In this document: one piece after another, positions 4,170 through 12,643 of the stretch
Position numbering within the stretch: position 1 is the first letter of the stretch
Layout: the number at the start of each line of letters is the position of its first letter
Translations under genes and position numbers: made by a program
IMG/VR virus record: IMGVR_UViG_3300032083_000654
Coordinates: 1 to 26,042 of that record
Length of the DNA: 26,042 nucleotides
From: a virus
Reading direction: 5' to 3' (one strand)
The notes under the pieces: model-generated
Seen by the model: the letters and a program-made list of their open reading frames with translations, nothing else
Database searches by the model: none
What the model was told of the DNA's origin: nothing

Positions 4170-4414
4170 TGTCAGATAAAATATTAAGCGAAGAAGAATT
4201 AGAAATAGAAACTTATAAATCTGATTATATTAAAGAGAATATAATTGCTAAGCATATGAGCGATATTCAAGTTATGAGTAAGCTGATAGAATCAATTAAT
4301 GAATATTTAATTGTATTTGGTAGAACTAGCAATGTTCATGACCAACTTATTGATTTAAAGGCACAGGTTAAGAAAAATCGTGACCATTTAAATGATTGGA
4401 TTAACAAAATATGA
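4169..4414 (+). CDS. Small acidic coiled-coil-like protein, unknown function
   Basis: An 81-residue protein, acidic at the N-terminus and helical throughout, with hydrophobic residues spaced as in a coiled coil from about residue 28 to 78. ATG 4169 overlaps the HTH gene stop, and its own stop overlaps the exonuclease start (ATGA), so it is probably co-translated with both. It could be an accessory subunit of the exonuclease; nothing in the sequence proves it. Confidence 0.65.
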   Translation: MSDKILSEEELEIETYKSDYIKENIIAKHMSDIQVMSKLIESINEYLIVFGRTSNVHDQLIDLKAQVKKNRDHLNDWINKI

Positions 4415-5202
4415 TTGAACATTTTAAAAAGTTTGATGATGGCAGTAAGAGTCTACTGCCATTGTCTTTTAGTCATCTTAATGAGTTTGCGTTTTATCGT
4501 GAAAGGTGGGCTTTAAGAAGAATATTTGGCTATGAATTTCCAACTGGCGCTTCTGCTGTTAGGGGGAATGCTGTTGAATCTGGTTTAAATATGATTTTAG
4601 ATGGAATGTCATTTAAAGATGCAAGTGAAATTATGATAGCTAATTATGATAACAACTGCTTAAATTTAACAGACCCTAAAGTTAACGATGAAAGGGATAA
4701 TTTAATACCTTTATTGGAACTTGGTGCTCATGAGTTCAAAGAACGTGCTTTTCAATGGAAATTATTAAATTACCAAAAGAAAGTTGAGGTATCTATAGAA
4801 GATATACCTTTTGTTGGTTATACAGACTTTCATTTTGAAGATAAAAACACTAAAGAGGATTTTTTTATTGATTTAAAGACTTCCAAGACTAACCCTATGC
4901 AGATAAGCACTAGTCATGCTATGCAACAAGCCATTTATAATAGGGCTACTAATGCAAGGCAAATGCTATGGTATTTAAAAACACCCACTAAGACAAAACC
5001 TGCTGAATTTACCCAGCTAGAATTAGCCACATATGACCATCATTTAAATATTTGTAAACATATTGTGAAAGTTATGGGTAATTTTCTAAAAAATGTTAAT
5101 TCAAAAGATGATGTCAAAATGGCTCTAATTCCCAATCCTGATAATTGGATATGGAAAGAAGAAACAGTTTTAAATGCAAGAAAAGAAGTATGGGGTTTTT
5201 AA
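4411..5202 (+). CDS. PD-(D/E)XK exonuclease (RecB/Cas4-like)
   Basis: A 263-residue nuclease of the RecB-like PD-(D/E)XK superfamily. The family layout is visible: LSFSHLNEFAFYRERWALRR near residues 18-37, the helix RGNAVESGLN at about 51-60, a VGYTDFHF strand with the metal-binding Asp at about residue 138, then FFIDLKTSK with the D-x-K core at about 152-156, followed by QQAIYNRA. Cysteines for a Cas4-type iron-sulfur cluster are absent. Phages use such enzymes to make single strands for recombination or to degrade host DNA, and the ssDNA-binding-like gene upstream suits a recombination role. ATG 4411 overlaps the previous stop. Confidence 0.8.
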   Translation: MIEHFKKFDDGSKSLLPLSFSHLNEFAFYRERWALRRIFGYEFPTGASAVRGNAVESGLNMILDGMSFKDASEIMIANYDNNCLNLTDPKVNDERDNLIPLLELGAHEFKERAFQWKLLNYQKKVEVSIEDIPFVGYTDFHFEDKNTKEDFFIDLKTSKTNPMQISTSHAMQQAIYNRATNARQMLWYLKTPTKTKPAEFTQLELATYDHHLNICKHIVKVMGNFLKNVNSKDDVKMALIPNPDNWIWKEETVLNARKEVWGF

Positions 5203-5245: not shown

Positions 5246-5277
5246 AATACTTAAAACTAATTAGATTGGAGATAATT

Positions 5278-6162
5278 ATGTTTGTCGAAGAAAACTCTAA
5301 ACCAAAAGAAAAATTAAGAGCTTGGTATTTATTTACTGAGGACTTTGTTGCAGGCACTCAGCATTTAACAAACGAAGAAATAGGAATTTATATTAGGTTA
5401 CTTTGTTATAACTGGAATAAAAGATGCAAAGGTATACCTTGCGATAATATGACATACTATAGGATAGCTAGTTGTATTACAGAAAGTGAAAAAGCAAGTT
5501 GTCATAAAATTTTAGAACAATTTTTTATACAAATTGGGGAACATTTTCAAAACGAAAGACAGTTAGAGGAATATTTATATATAACAAGACGAGTTACTGC
5601 ATCAAGGCAAAATGGTAAGTTAGGAGGTAGACCTAAAAAACCTAATACTAAACCTAAAGTAAAACCTAATAGTGAACCAACTATAGAACCTACAAAAAAC
5701 CCCCCTACCCCTACCCCTACCCCTACAATTAAACTTAATAAATTAAGTTATAATACTTATTTTCAAAAGTTTTGGGAAAGTATTCCTAATAAGATAAGTA
5801 AGGGGATAGCAGAAAAAAATTATTTAAAGTTAGAGCAAGAGTGGATTGGTCAACCAGAAAAACTAGCAGATATGTATAAAACATATTATAATTCTATTGA
5901 AGATAAACAATTTGCTAAGCAACCTGCATTTTGGTTATCCGCTAAAAAGTATTTAGACGAACAGCCGAAGAAACAAGATACAAGCATTGCTGACCCTTAT
6001 GTCATGCGGTTAAAAATGTTTAAAGAAGCTGTTGAAGCAAAAAAAGGGACTAGTTTTATTAAAGGTTATGCTCAAAGGTATCCTAGTGATGTTGAAAGAG
6101 CAATAAGCGAGGGACAATTTACGAAACAACAAGCAATAGAGTTTCTAGATTTTAGGGGGTAA
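5278..6162 (+). CDS. DUF1376-domain replication-initiation-like protein
   Basis: A 294-residue protein with an N-terminal DUF1376 (YdaU-like) domain at about residues 14-105: AWYLFTEDFVAGTQHLTNEE, then IYIRLLCYNWN and the ASRQNGKLGGRPKK end. DUF1376 proteins are commonly annotated as phage replication or primosomal proteins, in the place of lambda O. A low-complexity linker follows (about residues 120-150, KPNT/KPKV/KPNS/EPTI/EPTK then PTPTPTPT), then a C-terminal domain. ATG 5278 is chosen over the in-frame TTG 5266, since TTGGAG is the ribosome binding site. The linker DNA has 12-bp repeats and a C4TA repeat, listed separately, which may mark an origin. Confidence 0.7.
   Translation: MFVEENSKPKEKLRAWYLFTEDFVAGTQHLTNEEIGIYIRLLCYNWNKRCKGIPCDNMTYYRIASCITESEKASCHKILEQFFIQIGEHFQNERQLEEYLYITRRVTASRQNGKLGGRPKKPNTKPKVKPNSEPTIEPTKNPPTPTPTPTIKLNKLSYNTYFQKFWESIPNKISKGIAEKNYLKLEQEWIGQPEKLADMYKTYYNSIEDKQFAKQPAFWLSAKKYLDEQPKKQDTSIADPYVMRLKMFKEAVEAKKGTSFIKGYAQRYPSDVERAISEGQFTKQQAIEFLDFRG
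5639..5698 (+). repeat. 12-bp tandem repeats (AACCTA family) in the initiator gene
   Basis: Five successive 12-base units begin at 5639, 5651, 5663, 5675 and 5687, each starting AACC (AACCTA in four, AACCAA in one), with varied second halves. They encode four-residue units of the type [K/E]P-x-x. They run straight into the C4TA repeat at 5700. They can be read either as a protein linker repeat or as iteron-like DNA. Confidence 0.65.
5700..5727 (-). repeat. C4TA hexamer repeat; G-quadruplex motif on the minus strand
   Basis: C runs lie at 5700-5705, 5708-5711, 5714-5717 and 5720-5723, each separated by TA. The minus strand therefore has four runs of four or more G with 2-base loops, a strong G-quadruplex consensus similar to telomeric repeats. 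In frame it encodes alternating Pro and Thr. It stands out sharply from the AT-rich surroundings. Confidence 0.8.
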
Positions 6163-6164
6163 AT

Positions 6165-6359
6165 ATGAAAATAATGTCTATAAGTTATTACAAAGAGGAA
6201 GAGGAATCATATGTAGAATTGTTAGAATCATATGAAGATTTAGATGATGCGGAAAAAATGTGCTGTTTAAACGATGCTATATTTGATTTAACAGTATACA
6301 AAGAAGCATTGAAAATTGAAATGGAGGAGTTTAAAAATGACAACAATGAGCTTAATTAA
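6165..6359 (+). CDS. Small acidic protein, unknown function
   Basis: A 64-residue, strongly acidic protein (many E and D) with a predicted helix at each end. GGGGG at 6156-6160 lies at good distance before ATG 6165. Acidic phage proteins of this size can act as DNA mimics or inhibitors of host nucleases, but the composition is the only support. Its last 23 bases overlap the next gene. Confidence 0.65.
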   Translation: MKIMSISYYKEEEESYVELLESYEDLDDAEKMCCLNDAIFDLTVYKEALKIEMEEFKNDNNELN

Positions 6360-6552
6360 AGGAAATACAACTGTTTTCCAATGTATAGGCGATGCTTATT
6401 CTAAAAGAGATATACAAAGATTTTACTATGGTTATTTGCTTTGCATAAGGGCAAAAACTGATATGAAAGCCTTGCATAAATACTTGTTAAATCGTTATAA
6501 TTTTAGCAGAAACTTATGTTTTAGAATGTTAAAAAAAGCGAGGACTAAATGA
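6337..6552 (+). CDS. Small basic protein, unknown function
   Basis: A 71-residue basic, helical protein with aromatic and cysteine residues in the middle (FYYGYLLCIRAK). The start is ATG 6337: GGAGGAG at 6323-6329 gives an ideal ribosome binding site, whereas the in-frame TTG 6316 has none. The leader GGAGTTTAAAAATGA closely resembles those before the genes at 961 and 2863. It ends in an ATGA overlap with the next gene. Unrecognised. Confidence 0.65.
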   Translation: MTTMSLIKGNTTVFQCIGDAYSKRDIQRFYYGYLLCIRAKTDMKALHKYLLNRYNFSRNLCFRMLKKARTK

Positions 6553-6800
6553 AATTTAATAAAATAAGAAATACTTACACCGATTTAAAAGAACTGCATA
6601 AAGAACTAAAGGCAAAAAACACAGAAACTGAAGACGATAGATTTGAAGATGTTTCTGAAGAGCTTGCTGAATTAGATAGGTTAGGAAAAGTGCATTATTC
6701 TTGTTATTCTGATTATTACACGATGGCTAAAAACCGTAATGGAGACCATAGACCTATACCCTTGGGTCTAACATCAAAAAACCGCAATTATACTTATTAG
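6549..6800 (+). CDS. Small hypothetical protein
   Basis: An 83-residue protein with a charged, helical N-terminal half (residues about 1-50, rich in K, E and D) and a C-terminal half with aromatics, HYSCYSDYYTMAKNRNGD. I recognise no domain. ATG 6549 overlaps the preceding stop (ATGA), so it belongs to the same translational chain, and it is the last gene before the deazaguanine operon. Confidence 0.65.
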   Translation: MKFNKIRNTYTDLKELHKELKAKNTETEDDRFEDVSEELAELDRLGKVHYSCYSDYYTMAKNRNGDHRPIPLGLTSKNRNYTY

Positions 6801-6808
6801 GAAAAATA

Positions 6809-7354
6809 ATGAAAGCAATCATGATGGATATAGAGGAAATTATTCCCTATGCAAGAAATCCTCGTAATAACATTACAGCAGTTGACGCAGTAGTGTCGTC
6901 AATTAAAGAGTTTGGGTTTCAACAACCTATTGTCATTGATAAATCAAATGTAATAATTGTTGGTCATACAAGGCATTTAGCATCACGAAAGTTAGGTTTA
7001 AAAAAAGTGCCAGTTGTTGTAGCTGATAATCTTACAGACTCACAGGTTAAAGCATATCGTATAGCTGATAATAGAATAAACCAAAATGCTTCCTGGGATT
7101 ATGAATTATTAAAACTTGAATTTGATGACATAGATTTAAATGTTAATTTTACAGGATTTGATGAAGAAGAAATTAATAATATTATAGATGGATGGCAAAC
7201 TGATATAGACTTACCAACAACTGATGGTGAGAGCCTAGAAGGCTTAAAGCCAGTATTAAAGTTAGAATTTAATAATGATGATGACAAAGACCAAGCTATT
7301 AATTTTATTGAAGAAGCTTTAAATAAAACAAGTATTAGTTATGAAATTAAGTGA
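6809..7354 (+). CDS. ParB-like (ParB/Srx fold) protein heading the DNA-modification operon
   Basis: A 181-residue protein with an N-terminal ParB/sulfiredoxin-like domain: EIIPYARNPRNN at about residues 9-20, IKEFGFQQPIVID at 32-44, then the box VGHTRHLASRKLG at about 51-63 and the helix QVKAYRIADNRINQNASWD at 75-93. In phages and islands, stand-alone proteins of this type usually lie before or fused to DNA methyltransferases. Here the partner is instead the DpdA-like enzyme, whose gene overlaps by 14 bases. It may give target choice, DNA binding or a nucleotide-driven clamp function to base exchange; this is inference. A later in-frame start, ATG 6821, is possible. Confidence 0.8.
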   Translation: MKAIMMDIEEIIPYARNPRNNITAVDAVVSSIKEFGFQQPIVIDKSNVIIVGHTRHLASRKLGLKKVPVVVADNLTDSQVKAYRIADNRINQNASWDYELLKLEFDDIDLNVNFTGFDEEEINNIIDGWQTDIDLPTTDGESLEGLKPVLKLEFNNDDDKDQAINFIEEALNKTSISYEIK

Positions 7355-8192
7355 TAAAAATATAAATATTTTAGTTGCTTATCCCTATTATACAAAACAA
7401 CTACAAGAATATTTAATAGGTAAAAATGATATAAATATGTTGTTAGATAGTGGAGCATTTACAGCTTGGAAAGCTGGTAAAGTTATTGAGGTTGATGATT
7501 ATTGTAATTTTATAGAAAGCCTACCTACAAAACCTTGGCGATATTTTGCTTTAGATGTCGTTGGAAATCCTGAAAAAACAATGCAAAATTATAAAATAAT
7601 GTTAGATAGAGGATTTAAGCCTATACCTATTTTTACAAGAGGCGAAGATATAAGTGTTTTAGAGGATTATTATAAAACAAGTGATATAGTTGGTGTTGGT
7701 GGCTTAGTTGGTACAAAAAAAAATAAAGCGTTTGTAAACGCACTTATGAGACGAATAAAGGGACGTAAAGTACATTGGTTAGGTTTTACTAACATTAAAT
7801 ACATTAAATATTATAAGCCTTATATGTGCGACAGTTCTAGTTGGTTAACGGGCAGTCGTTATGCGTCATTTAATCTATATTGTGGTAATGGTAAATTTGA
7901 AAAAATAAACAAAAAACAATTTATAAATAAAACTGATTATATGAATGGTTCAGGATTAAACATCAAAAATGTAATTACAAAATATGGTTTTAATTATTTT
8001 GATTTACAAAAAACGGAAGGTTGGATTGGCGGTAATAGTACAATAAGAAACTTATGTGCTTCATCTTATATAAAATTATCAAACGATATAGAACTTAACT
8101 TAAAGACTAAATTTTTTTTAGCGGCATCAAATAAAAGTGATGTTAAAAAATTATATGATAACTACAAAAACCTAAGGAGTATGTATGGATAA
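7341..8192 (+). CDS. dpdA: DpdA-like DNA guanine transglycosylase (TGT paralogue)
   Basis: A 283-residue member of the tRNA-guanine transglycosylase-like superfamily, resembling the phage DpdA enzymes that replace guanine in DNA with a 7-deazaguanine base. LLDSGAFTAW supplies the general-acid aspartate at D36 (the DSGGFQ motif of TGT), and CDSSSWLTG supplies the likely nucleophile at D164; the DSxSW form is typical of DpdA rather than tRNA enzymes. Between them, DVVGNP and VGVGGLVGT fit barrel strands and the base-binding loop. The C-terminal zinc-binding CxCxxC of bacterial TGT is not seen. It overlaps ParB-like upstream and QueC downstream by 8 bases, so preQ0 is made and used by one operon. 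Confidence 0.85.
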   Translation: MKLSDKNINILVAYPYYTKQLQEYLIGKNDINMLLDSGAFTAWKAGKVIEVDDYCNFIESLPTKPWRYFALDVVGNPEKTMQNYKIMLDRGFKPIPIFTRGEDISVLEDYYKTSDIVGVGGLVGTKKNKAFVNALMRRIKGRKVHWLGFTNIKYIKYYKPYMCDSSSWLTGSRYASFNLYCGNGKFEKINKKQFINKTDYMNGSGLNIKNVITKYGFNYFDLQKTEGWIGGNSTIRNLCASSYIKLSNDIELNLKTKFFLAASNKSDVKKLYDNYKNLRSMYG

Positions 8193-8886
8193 TGCAGTAG
8201 TAATATTAAGCGGTGGTCAAGATTCAACAACTTGTTTACATTGGGCTAAAGCAAAATATAAAGAATTATATGCCTTAACTTTTAATTATGGACAAACACA
8301 TAGCTTAGAGTTGGAGAGTGCAAAAAAAATAGCAAAAATTAATAATATTGAGCATGAGATAATCGATGTTCCTAATATATTAAAATCAACCTCGCCTTTA
8401 ACTGATAAAACGCAAACATTAGAAACATATGATAATTATGATGAAATGGACGAAATTATAGGTGACAGGATTGAGCTTACTTTTGTTCCTATGAGAAATG
8501 CTTTTTTCTTAACATTAGGTGCTAATTATGCTTTGTCAAAAAATTGCAGGACTTTAGTTACAGGAGTATGTCAACAAGATAATGCAAATTACCCAGACTG
8601 TAGAAAAACCTTTATTAATGCACAAGAAAAAACAATAAATGAAGCTTTAGGTATAGATGATTTTAAAATTGAAACTCCTTTAATATTTAAAACAAAAGCT
8701 GAATCAATAAAATTGGCAATAAATCTGGATAGCTGTATGAATTCGATGGCTTACTCGCACACTTGTTATGCGGGTCAATTCCCTCCTTGCGGAAAGTGTC
8801 ATTCATGTGTTTTAAGAGCACAAGGTTTTAAAGAAGCAAATGTAATTGACCCATTAATTGAGAGGGCTAACAATGAAAGCAAATAG
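8185..8886 (+). CDS. queC: 7-cyano-7-deazaguanine (preQ0) synthase QueC
   Basis: A 233-residue QueC, which converts 7-carboxy-7-deazaguanine to preQ0 using ATP and ammonia. The PP-loop ATP-binding motif SGGQDSTT spans residues 9-16, FNYGQ.H is at about 30-35, FVPMRN at about 99-104, and four zinc-binding cysteines sit at C194, C202, C205 and C208. Length is normal for the family, and no fused amidotransferase domain is present, so preQ0 rather than its amide is the expected product. AAGGAG at 8174-8179 serves ATG 8185. Confidence 0.95.
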   Translation: MDNAVVILSGGQDSTTCLHWAKAKYKELYALTFNYGQTHSLELESAKKIAKINNIEHEIIDVPNILKSTSPLTDKTQTLETYDNYDEMDEIIGDRIELTFVPMRNAFFLTLGANYALSKNCRTLVTGVCQQDNANYPDCRKTFINAQEKTINEALGIDDFKIETPLIFKTKAESIKLAINLDSCMNSMAYSHTCYAGQFPPCGKCHSCVLRAQGFKEANVIDPLIERANNESK

Positions 8887-9481
8887 TAATGTGAGTGGTC
8901 TTTTAAATGAAAAAGACATATTTGAAATTAAACTGGATGTTGAATATGCGTGTAGAGATTTATTAGAGGCATTAAGAATAGATTATAAACACGACCACAA
9001 TACAAAAGATACACCTAAACGAATGGCTAAAATGTATGTGGATGAAGTTTTTAAAGGTCGGTATTATCCAAGACCCAAAATAACAACTTTTCCAAATTAC
9101 AAAAAATTAGATGAGTTATATTCGGTTGGTCCTATAACTATAAGGTCAATGTGTTCACATCATTTTGTGCCTATAATTGGAAAAGTGTGGGTTGGTGTAA
9201 TCCCAAATGATACTTTAATAGGTTTATCAAAATTTAATAGAATTGTTGATTGGGTAGGTTCAAGACCACAAATTCAGGAAGAGTGTGTTGTACAAATAGC
9301 TGATGAATTAGAGGATATTATAAAACCCAAAGCTATTGGAGTAATAATGAAAGCAAGTCATATGTGTATGTCTTTAAGAGGTGTTAAAGATAATGACTGT
9401 GATATGACTACATCAGTTATGAGAGGGCTGTTTATGGAAAACAATCATGCTAGACAAGAATTTTTAGATATAATGAAATGA
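8873..9481 (+). CDS. folE: GTP cyclohydrolase I FolE
   Basis: A 202-residue GTP cyclohydrolase I, the first enzyme of deazaguanine synthesis (GTP to dihydroneopterin triphosphate). Zinc ligands are visible as C94 and H97 in RSMCSHHFVPI and C165 in SHMCMSLRG. GLSKFNRIVDW and the DTPKRMAKMY helix are also typical. An upstream in-frame TTG at 8858 would overlap QueC more deeply; ATG 8873 follows a GAGAGGG ribosome binding site, so it is chosen. The gene overlaps queC by 14 bases and queD by 4. In this context it feeds DNA modification rather than folate. Confidence 0.95.
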   Translation: MKANSNVSGLLNEKDIFEIKLDVEYACRDLLEALRIDYKHDHNTKDTPKRMAKMYVDEVFKGRYYPRPKITTFPNYKKLDELYSVGPITIRSMCSHHFVPIIGKVWVGVIPNDTLIGLSKFNRIVDWVGSRPQIQEECVVQIADELEDIIKPKAIGVIMKASHMCMSLRGVKDNDCDMTTSVMRGLFMENNHARQEFLDIMK

Positions 9482-9924
9482 GATATTTTAGTACAAAAAC
9501 ATATGGTCATAATATTGGTTTAAGCTGTGCATTTAGACAGCCCAAGGCAGAGAGCCATTGCAAATATATTCATGGATATAGCCTAAGTTTTAAATTTATT
9601 TTTACTTGTAAAGATTTAGACGAAAATAATTGGGTTGTTGACTTCGGTTCGCTGAAACCATTAAAAATTTGGCTTGAACAAAATTTTGACCATAAATTAT
9701 TAATTGATAAAAATGACCCTATGTCACAACAATTTGAGCTATTAGAACATAGTGGTTTATGCCAATTGGTTTTAATGGATGGCGTTGGCTGTGAGGCTTT
9801 TGCTAAACACGCTTACAATTTTGCAAATAATTACATTAAGCAATTAACTGATGATAGATGTTGGGTTTACTCATGTGAAGTTAGTGAACATGGTGCTAAT
9901 AGTGCTATTATTAAGGAGGAATAA
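9478..9924 (+). CDS. queD: 6-carboxytetrahydropterin synthase-like QueD, variant metal site
   Basis: A 148-residue member of the QueD/PTPS family, expected to make 6-carboxy-5,6,7,8-tetrahydropterin from dihydroneopterin triphosphate. The catalytic cysteine (C28), VVDFGSLK (about 53-60), FDHKLL (H72) and C-terminal EVSEHGANS (E134, H138) fit the family. Two of three classical zinc histidines differ: the AAHR motif reads CAFR (F19) and HGH reads HGY (H32, Y34). I recall a distinct QueD subfamily with FRQ...SHC..HGY, so this may be a natural variant with another ligand such as H27. It starts by ATGA overlap with folE. Confidence 0.85.
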   Translation: MRYFSTKTYGHNIGLSCAFRQPKAESHCKYIHGYSLSFKFIFTCKDLDENNWVVDFGSLKPLKIWLEQNFDHKLLIDKNDPMSQQFELLEHSGLCQLVLMDGVGCEAFAKHAYNFANNYIKQLTDDRCWVYSCEVSEHGANSAIIKEE

Positions 9925-10377
9925 ATGATTATTACGCCAAATGATGTTGATAAATATGATATACTTACTTGGTCAATGTTTGATGATGTTGTGCAAAACA
10001 TTACAAAAGAATTTAAAGATAAAAAAATAGAGGCTTTGTTTGGACAGCCGAGAGGAGGATTACCATTGGCTGTTGCACTTAGTCATACATTAGAAATACC
10101 ATTGTTAGATAATTTAAAAATTATTAAAGATATGAAAAAGTTTGGTAAAAACGTTTTATGGGTTGACGATATTGTGGACACAAAAAAAACTTTTAATGAA
10201 AACAAAGAGAATTTCACACATTTTACAAGCTGGGTTTCCAGAGTTAATATTACTGGCTTATACCACACTTACATATCAAATAAATGGGTTATCTTTCCCT
10301 GGGAGACATTAAATAACGCCGAAGAAGATAAAATTAATTATATAAAGAAAAGAACTAGTGAGGGTTATATAGAATGA
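9925..10377 (+). CDS. PRPP-dependent phosphoribosyltransferase in the preQ0 operon
   Basis: A 150-residue type I phosphoribosyltransferase. The PRPP-binding loop reads VLWVDDIVDTKKTF (about residues 77-90), close to the consensus VDDxxxTGxT but with K in place of G. An upstream GQPRGGLPLAVALSH (about 40-54) matches the purine (xanthine-guanine/hypoxanthine) transferase group. The gene starts directly after the queD stop and has the strongest ribosome binding site of the operon (AAGGAGG, 5 bases before ATG). Possible roles are salvage of guanine released by DpdA, or addition of ribose phosphate to preQ0 as ToyH does in toyocamycin synthesis. The family is clear, the substrate is not. Confidence 0.8.
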   Translation: MIITPNDVDKYDILTWSMFDDVVQNITKEFKDKKIEALFGQPRGGLPLAVALSHTLEIPLLDNLKIIKDMKKFGKNVLWVDDIVDTKKTFNENKENFTHFTSWVSRVNITGLYHTYISNKWVIFPWETLNNAEEDKINYIKKRTSEGYIE

Positions 10378-11084
10378 ACATTCCTATAAATGAGTTTTTT
10401 ACAACTATACAAGGAGAAGCTAAATATACTGGCACACCATCTTTTTTTATTAGGTTACAAGGCTGTCCAGTTGGCTGTTCTTTTTGTGATACAAAATATA
10501 CCTGGGATTTACACAAAGAAGACCAAACAAAAGATTTACAGGAAATAATTGATAAAAAAAATTTAAATCATGGTGCCAATCAAGGTACAGCAAAACATAT
10601 TTTAATGGATGTTAACGACGTTTTAAAGCTATGTGTAAAAAATAGTGCAGACCATATAGTATTTACTGGTGGAGAGCCTTGTATGCACGATTTAACCGAG
10701 ATAACAAGGGATTTAAATTATTTTAGACCAAGTGGTTTAAAAAAAAGATTTACAACACAAATTGAAACAAGTGGAACATATGAGATACAATGCGACCCTA
10801 ATACATGGGTTACATTAAGTCCAAAAATTAATATGAGTGGTGGATTAGACGTTTTAGAATCAAGTTATACAAGGGCTAACGAAATAAAATATCCAGTAGG
10901 TAAACAAAAAGATATTGATAATTTATTAGAGATTTTAAACAATTTTATATTAAGCGATTATGTTAAAATATGGTTACAGCCATTAAGCATGAGTCCAAAA
11001 GCAACCCAACTATGTTATGATGCCTGCTTAAAATATAATTTTAACCTTAGTTTACAAACACATAAATATGCTAATATAAGATAA
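10374..11084 (+). CDS. queE: 7-carboxy-7-deazaguanine synthase QueE
   Basis: A 236-residue radical SAM enzyme that converts 6-carboxytetrahydropterin to 7-carboxy-7-deazaguanine. EFFTTIQGEA at the N-terminus and the cluster motif CPVGCSFCDTKYTW (C31, C35, C38, binding a 4Fe-4S cluster) identify it. TGGEPCMHD (about residues 99-107) is the SAM-binding GGE motif, and WLQPLS near the C-terminus fits the family. ATG 10374 overlaps the phosphoribosyltransferase stop (ATGA). It closes the seven-gene operon. Confidence 0.93.
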   Translation: MNIPINEFFTTIQGEAKYTGTPSFFIRLQGCPVGCSFCDTKYTWDLHKEDQTKDLQEIIDKKNLNHGANQGTAKHILMDVNDVLKLCVKNSADHIVFTGGEPCMHDLTEITRDLNYFRPSGLKKRFTTQIETSGTYEIQCDPNTWVTLSPKINMSGGLDVLESSYTRANEIKYPVGKQKDIDNLLEILNNFILSDYVKIWLQPLSMSPKATQLCYDACLKYNFNLSLQTHKYANIR

Positions 11085-11123: not shown

Positions 11124-11426
11124 ATGGCACGACCAAAGAAGTATTTAATAGATACAAAGCAATTAACTACATTAGCAAAATTAGGGTGTACAAATAAAGA
11201 AATGGCTGACTTTTTTGGCTGTTCTGCAGATTTATTAGAAAAGAGTTATTCGGAATTTCTGACAAAAGGTAGGGCAGAACAAAAAATGCGATTAAGACAG
11301 CTTCAATGGAAAGCTTGTGAAAATGGTAATGTTAGTATGTTAATATTTTTAGGAAAGAATATGTTAGGTCAACAAGATAGAGTAGAAGAAACCCAACTTG
11401 AAGAGCCTTTGCCCTGGACTAGTTGA
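11124..11426 (+). CDS. terS: Terminase small subunit-like DNA-binding protein
   Basis: A 100-residue protein with a helix-turn-helix segment (LAKLGCTNKEMADFFGCSADLLEKS, about residues 17-41), followed by helices and a polar tail. The pattern 'gct-n-k-e-mA.ffg.s' and the later ISMLIFLGKNMLGQ-like motif (here VSMLIFLGKNMLGQQD) are typical of phage small terminases, which recognise the packaging site and recruit the large subunit. It sits directly before the large-subunit gene. A GAGG ribosome binding site precedes ATG 11124. The 39-base gap from queE may hold the packaging operon's start signals, though I see no strong promoter. Confidence 0.75.
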   Translation: MARPKKYLIDTKQLTTLAKLGCTNKEMADFFGCSADLLEKSYSEFLTKGRAEQKMRLRQLQWKACENGNVSMLIFLGKNMLGQQDRVEETQLEEPLPWTS

Positions 11427-12643
11427 TGCCACTAACAAAGCCACAATCAGATGTAATTAACGATAAATCAAGGTTTAGGGTTTTAATAACTGGGCGTAGG
11501 TTTGGTAAAACATATTTGGCTATTAATGAGTTAGCTAAATTTGCTAGTAAAGCTAATCAAAAGGTTTGGTATGTAGCACCGACCTATAGACAAGCAAAAC
11601 AAATATGCTGGTCTGAATTAAAAGATAAACTTATAGAACATAAATGGGTTAAAAATGTAAATAACAGTGATTTAACTATTACATTAAAAAATAATTCTAA
11701 AATAACATTAAGAGGTGCGGATAACGAACAGTCATTAAGGGGTGTTGGTTTAAATTTTATTGTTCTAGATGAGTTTGCAGATATACATAAAGAAGCGTGG
11801 TATGAAGTGTTAAGACCAACTTTATCTGATACAGTAGGTCATGCTTTGTTTTGTGGTAGTCCTAGAGGTTTTGGTAATTGGTCTTATGAGTTATTTAAAC
11901 AAAGTGAAACTAATAAAGACTGGTCATCTTTTAAATACACAACACTTGAGGGAGGACAAGTAGCTGATGATGAGATAGAACAGGCTAAACAAGATTTAGA
12001 TATTAGAACATTCCAACAAGAATATGAAGCTACGTTTGTTAATTATTCTGGAATGATTTATTATAATTTTAATAGACAAAAAAACATTATTGAAAAGTTT
12101 GATAAAGAATACCCAATATTACATATTGGTTTGGATTTTAACGTAGACCCTATGACAGCGGTTGTTAGTTATATTGATAGAGAAACAATTATTGTTGTTG
12201 ATGAAATACAAATATATTCATCAAATACCCAAGAAATGTGTGAAGAAATAAGAAATAAATATCCAAATAAAAAAATAACAGTTTACCCAGACCCTAGTGC
12301 TAGACAAAGAAAAACCTCTGCAGGTGGATTTACTGACATAAGTATATTGAAAAATGCAGGATTTGATGTAAAATGTAGAAATACAGCACCTCTTGTGAGG
12401 GATAGGATTAACTCAGTTAATTCAAAACTTAAAAATGTAAATGGCAAAAACAATCTGTTTATTCTAAAATCTTGCAAAAATGTAATAAAAAGCATAGAAA
12501 GACAGATATACAAAGAGGGAACACATATACCAGATAAGGATAGTGGATATGACCACATGAATGATGCTCTTGGTTATTTAGTTGAGTTTAATTTCCCACT
12601 TAGACGGAATTTTGTTGCAAGCCCTCCTAAGAGGTGGAGTTAA
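11426..12643 (+). CDS. terL: Terminase large subunit
   Basis: A 405-residue packaging motor. The ATPase domain has the Walker A motif ITGRRFGKT (residues 21-29), Walker B VLDEFA near residue 113 and a coupling motif FCGSPRG near 146-152. The C-terminal RNase H-like nuclease has GLDFNVDP near 236 with its first metal-binding aspartate and DHMNDALGYL near the end. Start ATG 11426 overlaps the small-subunit stop (TGATG); the in-frame TTG at 11423 is not needed. Length is on the short side of normal but all core motifs are present. Confidence 0.93.
   Translation: MPLTKPQSDVINDKSRFRVLITGRRFGKTYLAINELAKFASKANQKVWYVAPTYRQAKQICWSELKDKLIEHKWVKNVNNSDLTITLKNNSKITLRGADNEQSLRGVGLNFIVLDEFADIHKEAWYEVLRPTLSDTVGHALFCGSPRGFGNWSYELFKQSETNKDWSSFKYTTLEGGQVADDEIEQAKQDLDIRTFQQEYEATFVNYSGMIYYNFNRQKNIIEKFDKEYPILHIGLDFNVDPMTAVVSYIDRETIIVVDEIQIYSSNTQEMCEEIRNKYPNKKITVYPDPSARQRKTSAGGFTDISILKNAGFDVKCRNTAPLVRDRINSVNSKLKNVNGKNNLFILKSCKNVIKSIERQIYKEGTHIPDKDSGYDHMNDALGYLVEFNFPLRRNFVASPPKRWS

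Follow-up and report, generated by a model that had tools for sequence, protein, structure and literature searches.

We analyzed a linear virus contig of 26,042 bases (IMG/VR record IMGVR_UViG_3300032083_000654; the whole of this stretch is hereafter called the window), in which seven chained genes on the + strand, at positions 6809-11084, likely constitute a self-contained operon for DNA hypermodification with a 7-deazaguanine base. The products are, in order, ParB-like, DpdA-like, QueC, FolE, QueD, a phosphoribosyltransferase (PRT) and QueE, and the junctions between their genes consist of overlaps of 14, 8, 29 and 4 nucleotides, one abutting pair and a last overlap of 4 nucleotides. A first-pass annotation of the window had described a seven-gene operon for the synthesis and installation of 7-cyano-7-deazaguanine (preQ0) at this place, and this was borne out: all seven open reading frames were seen on the + strand, and families were assigned to them by profile E-values, as listed below.

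6809..7354, + strand: ParB-like protein, 181 amino acids, proposed DNA-clamp or adapter partner of DpdA (Pfam ParB_N, 2.6e-9)
7223..7351, + strand: C-terminal tail of the ParB-like protein, residues 139-181, found in DpdA-paired ParB proteins only (tail profile)
7341..8192, + strand: DpdA-like DNA guanine transglycosylase, 283 amino acids (phrog_887 "queuine tRNA-ribosyltransferase", 1.9e-32)
8185..8886, + strand: QueC, preQ0 synthase (Pfam QueC, 5e-64; TIGR00364, above cut-off)
8858..9481, + strand (start probably at ATG 8873): FolE, GTP cyclohydrolase I (Pfam, 1.2e-50)
9478..9924, + strand: QueD-like 6-carboxytetrahydropterin synthase with altered zinc-ligand positions (phrog_2389, 2.5e-41; Pfam PTPS, 1.7e-15)
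9925..10377, + strand: Gpt-like 6-oxopurine PRT (phrog_8995, 1.6e-16; purine and xanthine-guanine PRT structures, 5e-21 to 4e-12)
10374..11084, + strand: QueE, 7-carboxy-7-deazaguanine synthase, radical S-adenosylmethionine enzyme with CX3CX2C (equivalog TIGR04322, 6e-77, above cut-off)
11124..12643, + strand: small and large terminase subunits (phrog_309, 1.5e-5; phrog_2, 6.6e-49), directly downstream, context and not pathway

A chance origin of the operon is excluded by these family E-values and by the finding of the same operon in unrelated contigs. For the FolE gene, the start context makes ATG 8873 a more likely start than TTG 8858.

The preQ0 pathway, the transglycosylase and the predicted product

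The complete FolE, QueD, QueE and QueC route to preQ0 claimed in the first-pass annotation was recovered, all four enzymes being matched by family profiles, and very probably the operon encodes the preQ0 pathway. QueD scored under the NCBIfam cut-off, yet its match to phrog_2389 is strong. What speaks against this reading is that, of the three canonical zinc histidines, two are replaced in the alignment (H16 by F, H33 by Y), with Cys27 (the catalytic cysteine), His31 and His71 being kept. The zinc positions were read against E. coli QueD; the QueD proteins of phages CAjan, CRB2 and VpKK5 retain HxH, in such a way that the contrast with the window protein is the same as with that reference. Since the variant is common to 43 phage QueD rows of the alignment, we interpret it as a subtype belonging to phages; it also occurs in Flavobacterium phage immuto.

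The absence of QueF and of a fused amidotransferase, both part of the earlier description, also held. The sole PF14489 signal in the record is below the cut-off and comes from the FolE gene, and was rejected as QueF; the contig is linear, so genes beyond its ends are possible. QueC is a plain protein of 233 amino acids. In other contigs (L042, L043, L050, L054 and L199, phage Nadezda) ParB-DpdA and preQ0 genes were found with QueC neither detected nor annotated; the base inserted by these cassettes might be the substrate of QueC or a compound derived from it.

The product of 7341-8192 showed no Pfam or NCBIfam match at all, nor any Pfam match to tRNA-guanine transglycosylase (TGT) at E<=1. Solved TGT structures were absent from its sequence and fold matches, Foldseek against the Protein Data Bank returning weak TIM-barrel matches only, and assigning it by sequence to a solved structure was rejected, as such matches were at chance level. 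For this reason, its assignment as DpdA rests on phage homologues and on motifs common to the CAjan and 9g enzymes. Both were matched by tblastn (5e-17 for CAjan and 1e-17 for 9g), and the CDSSSW, DSGAF and GG motifs are common to the three proteins. The set of relatives comprised 31 related loci from viral contigs and one close relative in a contig from a metagenome-assembled genome; H145 is among the conserved residues, and in the alignment of 27 rows D36, D72, G120-G121, VHWLGF and D164 are invariant, in such a way that the catalytic aspartates expected in DSGAF and CDSSSW, D36 and D164, are found throughout. The structural comparison proposed in the first-pass annotation pointed the same way, with a predicted model of high confidence (predicted local distance difference test of 92.7) whose top three matches in BFVD were phage DpdA-type proteins (template modelling scores 0.77-0.93); a weak fold match to DpdA2 of phage nt-1 was also obtained. 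In the tree, a marine/metagenomic DpdA clade splits from the DpdA proteins of cultured phages with full support. From these homologies, we are highly confident that the product acts on DNA as a DpdA. Contig L020 carries a tandem pair at 5263-8831, with two ParB and two DpdA genes.

The PHROG label of phrog_887 and the distant relationship between TGT and DpdA would also fit a TGT, with the operon raising queuosine or preQ0 in host tRNA. We consider this very improbable, since neither Pfam nor NCBIfam gave a match and no solved TGT was retrieved, the active-site motif is that of the CAjan and 9g DNA enzymes, and the gene adjoins ParB with the terminase near, an architecture also seen in Rosebushvirus, whose DNA is modified. 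Placement with tRNA-modifying enzymes, named in the first-pass annotation as what would count against a DNA-modifying role, was not observed, the similarity being to phage DpdA proteins instead.

These data support the reading as preQ0 synthesis plus DpdA, with which families, motifs, fold and cultured phages of like gene order all agreed. The main product is probably 2'-deoxy-7-cyano-7-deazaguanosine (dPreQ0), the likeliest candidate because of these same-order cultured phages and of the data on Rosebush and CAjan DNA: in Rosebush, dPreQ0 was found at ~28% of Gs (PMC6884629), and it is lost in CAjan deleted for dpdA (PMC6884629). The Rosebushvirus gene order was read from Blocker23, and dPreQ0 was measured in Rosebush. 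We regard as unlikely that the final base is 2'-deoxy-7-amido-7-deazaguanosine (dADG), 2'-deoxy-7-carboxy-7-deazaguanosine (dCDG) or another derivative, formed by a host activity or by the product of a gene lying beyond the sequenced DNA. The contig is linear and may be incomplete, dADG has been seen in phages for which no amidase is known (PMC6884629), and some sister cassettes have no detected QueC; but the window has an intact QueC, with no QueF or fused amidotransferase seen, and almost only dPreQ0 is present in Rosebush and CAjan, whose enzyme set is the same (PMC6884629).

The ParB-like protein and its tail

The ParB-like protein had been listed in the first-pass annotation as an extra member of the operon. 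Its presence was confirmed, and it was shown to recur, the ParB gene lying directly beside dpdA in 29 of 31 non-duplicate DpdA loci, with the two exceptions beginning at a contig edge. ParB is a regular, conserved partner of phage DpdA. Its predicted fold matched ParB/Noc CTPases, sulfiredoxin (Srx) and SerK. Bacterial DpdB is a ParB-like ATPase required for insertion (PMC12839542), the authors of the CRB2 study earlier suggested that the CRB2 ParB is a DpdB homologue (PMC6392294), and the role of ParB domains beside phage DNA-modifying enzymes has been described as not known (PMC12783734). The window protein has a predicted ParB/Srx fold and the linkage to dpdA, and on these two grounds it may work like DpdB.

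As controls, we took from viral contigs the 80 ParB proteins closest to that of the window, of which two had DpdA, leaving 78. An N6/N4 methylase domain was detected in 33 of the 38 long (fused) relatives of this set, and the stand-alone ones had as neighbours Tet_JBP (11), TAGT (7), C5 methylase (6) and Mom (5). A profile of the tail, of ~40 residues, matched 34/42 DpdA-adjacent ParB proteins (counting L021) and none of 90 other ParB proteins; when the subgroup of the window was omitted from the profile, the tail was still found on the window protein, L002 and L118, but not on L166, and again on no other ParB (0/78). The ParB-DpdA fusion apparent in L021 was rejected, as a one-base frameshift joins two genes arranged as in their relatives.

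ParB_N proteins are frequent in phages (566 records) and PHROGs label the family as partition protein or nuclease, so the window protein could be an ordinary partition, nuclease or regulatory protein lying upstream of dpdA by chance. This is an improbable explanation, given the near-constant adjacency and overlap with dpdA, the confinement of the tail to DpdA-paired ParB proteins, found again in the leave-group-out test, and the overwhelming presence of DNA-modification enzymes beside ParB at the control loci. A physical partnership with DpdA, DpdB-like in role, appears fairly probable, even if two facts count against it: L059, from a separate search, is a real exception with a DpdA and no detected ParB, and the Queuovirinae DpdA proteins work without an adjacent ParB. 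In phages of the latter type, dpdA adjoins a DNA polymerase sliding-clamp gene, as observed in L198 (CAjan), L205 (9g), L008 (VpKK5), L200 and L201. DpdA may need a clamp-type partner, provided by the sliding clamp in one group and, in the other, by ParB, a relative of CTPases whose solved structures are clamp-like.

A second comparison was made with the Pelagibacter phage HTVC112P, the closest cultured pelagiphage, which at the syntenic place has genes for ParB, Tet_JBP oxygenase, FkbM methyltransferase and a TerS-like protein, in this order, and whose ParB is 47% identical to that of the window over the N-terminal part. In the phylogeny of the ParB heads, built on 109 rows and 139 columns and therefore rough in its details, the window falls in a supported set (96/93) with all 12 TET-partnered rows (12/12) and only four DpdA-partnered ones, and the DpdA label changes at least three times on well-supported branches and seven times in the best tree. 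We infer that the tail docks DpdA and that the ParB head is exchangeable; HTVC112P and the phage of the window make a natural pair, with ParB in common and enzymes swapped. At 5636-7232 of HTVC112P (L206), one gene bears the annotation DnaJ/SNF2 but encodes the Tet_JBP oxygenase (Pfam, 1.1e-29), and the next is annotated as FkbM methyltransferase; the DNA of this cultured pelagiphage may therefore be modified as well.

The phosphoribosyltransferase and the proposed mechanism

The profile matches of the PRT were to an archaeal purine PRT and to xanthine-guanine PRTs, and the active-site residues expected from them are present, with the acidic pair in the phosphoribosyl pyrophosphate (PRPP) loop and the Trp and Pro-Trp of the purine site (D81, D82, D85, T89, W121, P125, W126). 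Its relatives in cultured phages belong to Cellulophaga, Flavobacterium, Vibrio and Campylobacter phages, and in Vibrio VpKK5 and Flavobacterium immuto the gene lies within the preQ0 cluster. PRT loci were collected by an alignment-based scan (a single-sequence scan gave no match), and at least one of FolE, QueD, QueE and QueC was found in the available flanks of 73 of 84 of them, a figure which expresses association and is no census, the loci being ranked by likeness to the window PRT and the profile being mostly seeded with such phages. This second "extra member" of the first-pass annotation is therefore present and is, moreover, a recurring accessory of phage 7-deazaguanine clusters. Starting from DpdA, a PRT was found in 11 of 31 loci (six fused to FolE and five stand-alone) and in 0/78 ParB controls (Fisher p=2e-7), and the FolE-fused PRTs retain the RGG, DD..D/E-S-G-x-T and PWE motifs.

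Since DpdA frees one guanine for each preQ0 inserted and FolE consumes GTP, the role that most simply fits this enzyme is guanine salvage. We propose, only tentatively, that the PRT salvages the guanine ejected by DpdA. Two observations weigh against it: residue 87 of the PRPP loop is Lys (K87) in the window PRT and in that of L002 but Gly in 90 of 97 relatives, and dPreQ0 does not require the PRT, which is missing from the clusters of CAjan and of the Rosebush type. Alternatively, the PRT could add phosphoribose to the 7-deazaguanine base, and the nucleotide would then be reduced and incorporated by polymerase, making the modification partly pre-replicative. PRTs also occur in CP220 and phi13:1, with no DpdA of the tested types within 7 kb and, in phi13:1, with a ribonucleotide reductase gene nearby; besides, the column aligned to Gpt K115, a residue that contacts O6 and N7, is variable across the family. 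We judge this route unlikely, since DpdA works on the free base and is encoded in the operon, the positions matching Gpt D92, W134 and PW are kept as in guanine/xanthine PRTs, and the window has neither an identified ribonucleotide reductase nor an identified polymerase.

In the mechanism that we propose, FolE, QueD, QueE and QueC would convert GTP to preQ0, which DpdA would swap for selected guanines in finished phage DNA, releasing free guanine. The ParB-like protein would be the DNA-side partner, a nucleotide-binding clamp or adapter docked on DpdA through its tail. With PRPP, the Gpt-like PRT would turn the ejected guanine into GMP, drawing the exchange forward and replenishing the GTP used by FolE. 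Virion DNA would be guarded by its dPreQ0 against restriction enzymes ahead of packaging by the terminase, whose genes lie next to the operon.

More speculatively, a ParB-type nucleotide-driven clamp could be a common carrier, encoded at a fixed place upstream of terminase with an exchangeable catalytic partner (methylase, TET oxygenase, Mom or transglycosylase), short tails matching carrier to enzyme and a dedicated PRT closing the guanine cycle. If this were true, the PRT of the DpdA version, sometimes fused to FolE, would return each ejected guanine to preQ0.

Genomic setting and comparison with known systems

The window terminase is 57% identical to that of HTVC112P, and by sequence the lineage hosting the cassette is a marine phage related to pelagiphages, close to the HTVC112P group. 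Of the phages examined from this lineage, four cultured relatives and one from a lake, none showed a comparable cluster. Promoter-like sites in the window were not more frequent than in shuffled sequence. A leader-like repeat with a GGAG motif lies just before open reading frame starts at 782-805, 932-964 and 2834-2868, and a PD-(D/E)XK nuclease-like gene (Pfam, 8.6e-5; exonuclease/Cas4-type PHROG matches) at 4411-5202.

CRB2 and the Rosebushvirus Blocker23, with the order ParB-DpdA-QueC-QueD-QueE-FolE-terminase, resemble the window in having ParB-DpdA-QueC first and the terminase last. However, compared with Rosebush (B2) and CRB2, the DpdA is only ~30% identical and in a separate clade, the order of FolE, QueD and QueE differs, the ParB head comes from another clade, and those phages are without PRT. 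The Queuovirinae (CAjan, 9g, VpKK5) have DpdA with FolE, QueD, QueE and QueC as in the window, and VpKK5 also has the PRT, but fused to FolE; their DpdA lies beside the sliding-clamp gene and that of the window beside ParB. The QueC of 9g is longer than the plain one of the window, and was reported as a fused amidotransferase-QueC (PMC6884629).

The bacterial Dpd system pairs a transglycosylase (DpdA) with a ParB-superfamily ATPase (DpdB) (PMC12839542), like the proposed pair of the window, whereas the window operon has neither DpdC nor restriction genes. In ParB-linked modules (ParB-methylase fusions, ParB-TET/JBP and ParB-CmoX), the same ParB family lies beside a base-modifying enzyme (PMC12783734), but the partner in the window is a transglycosylase and the ParB has a DpdA-specific tail. 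Gpt-type xanthine-guanine PRTs have the RGG, DDxxDT and W-x-x-x-P-W motifs in common with the window PRT, whereas the phage family is embedded or fused in preQ0 clusters and the window copy has Lys in the PRPP loop.

We consider with high confidence that the core belongs to a type of system already known, here in a new phage setting; the new part is the exchangeable ParB partner with its tail, whose role we assign with moderate confidence, and the linked PRT, whose role is tentative. ParB and a salvage-type enzyme recur in related systems, suggesting how such systems are assembled, and the comparison makes testable both the role of the small ParB domain beside phage DNA-modifying enzymes and the fate of the guanine ejected by DpdA.

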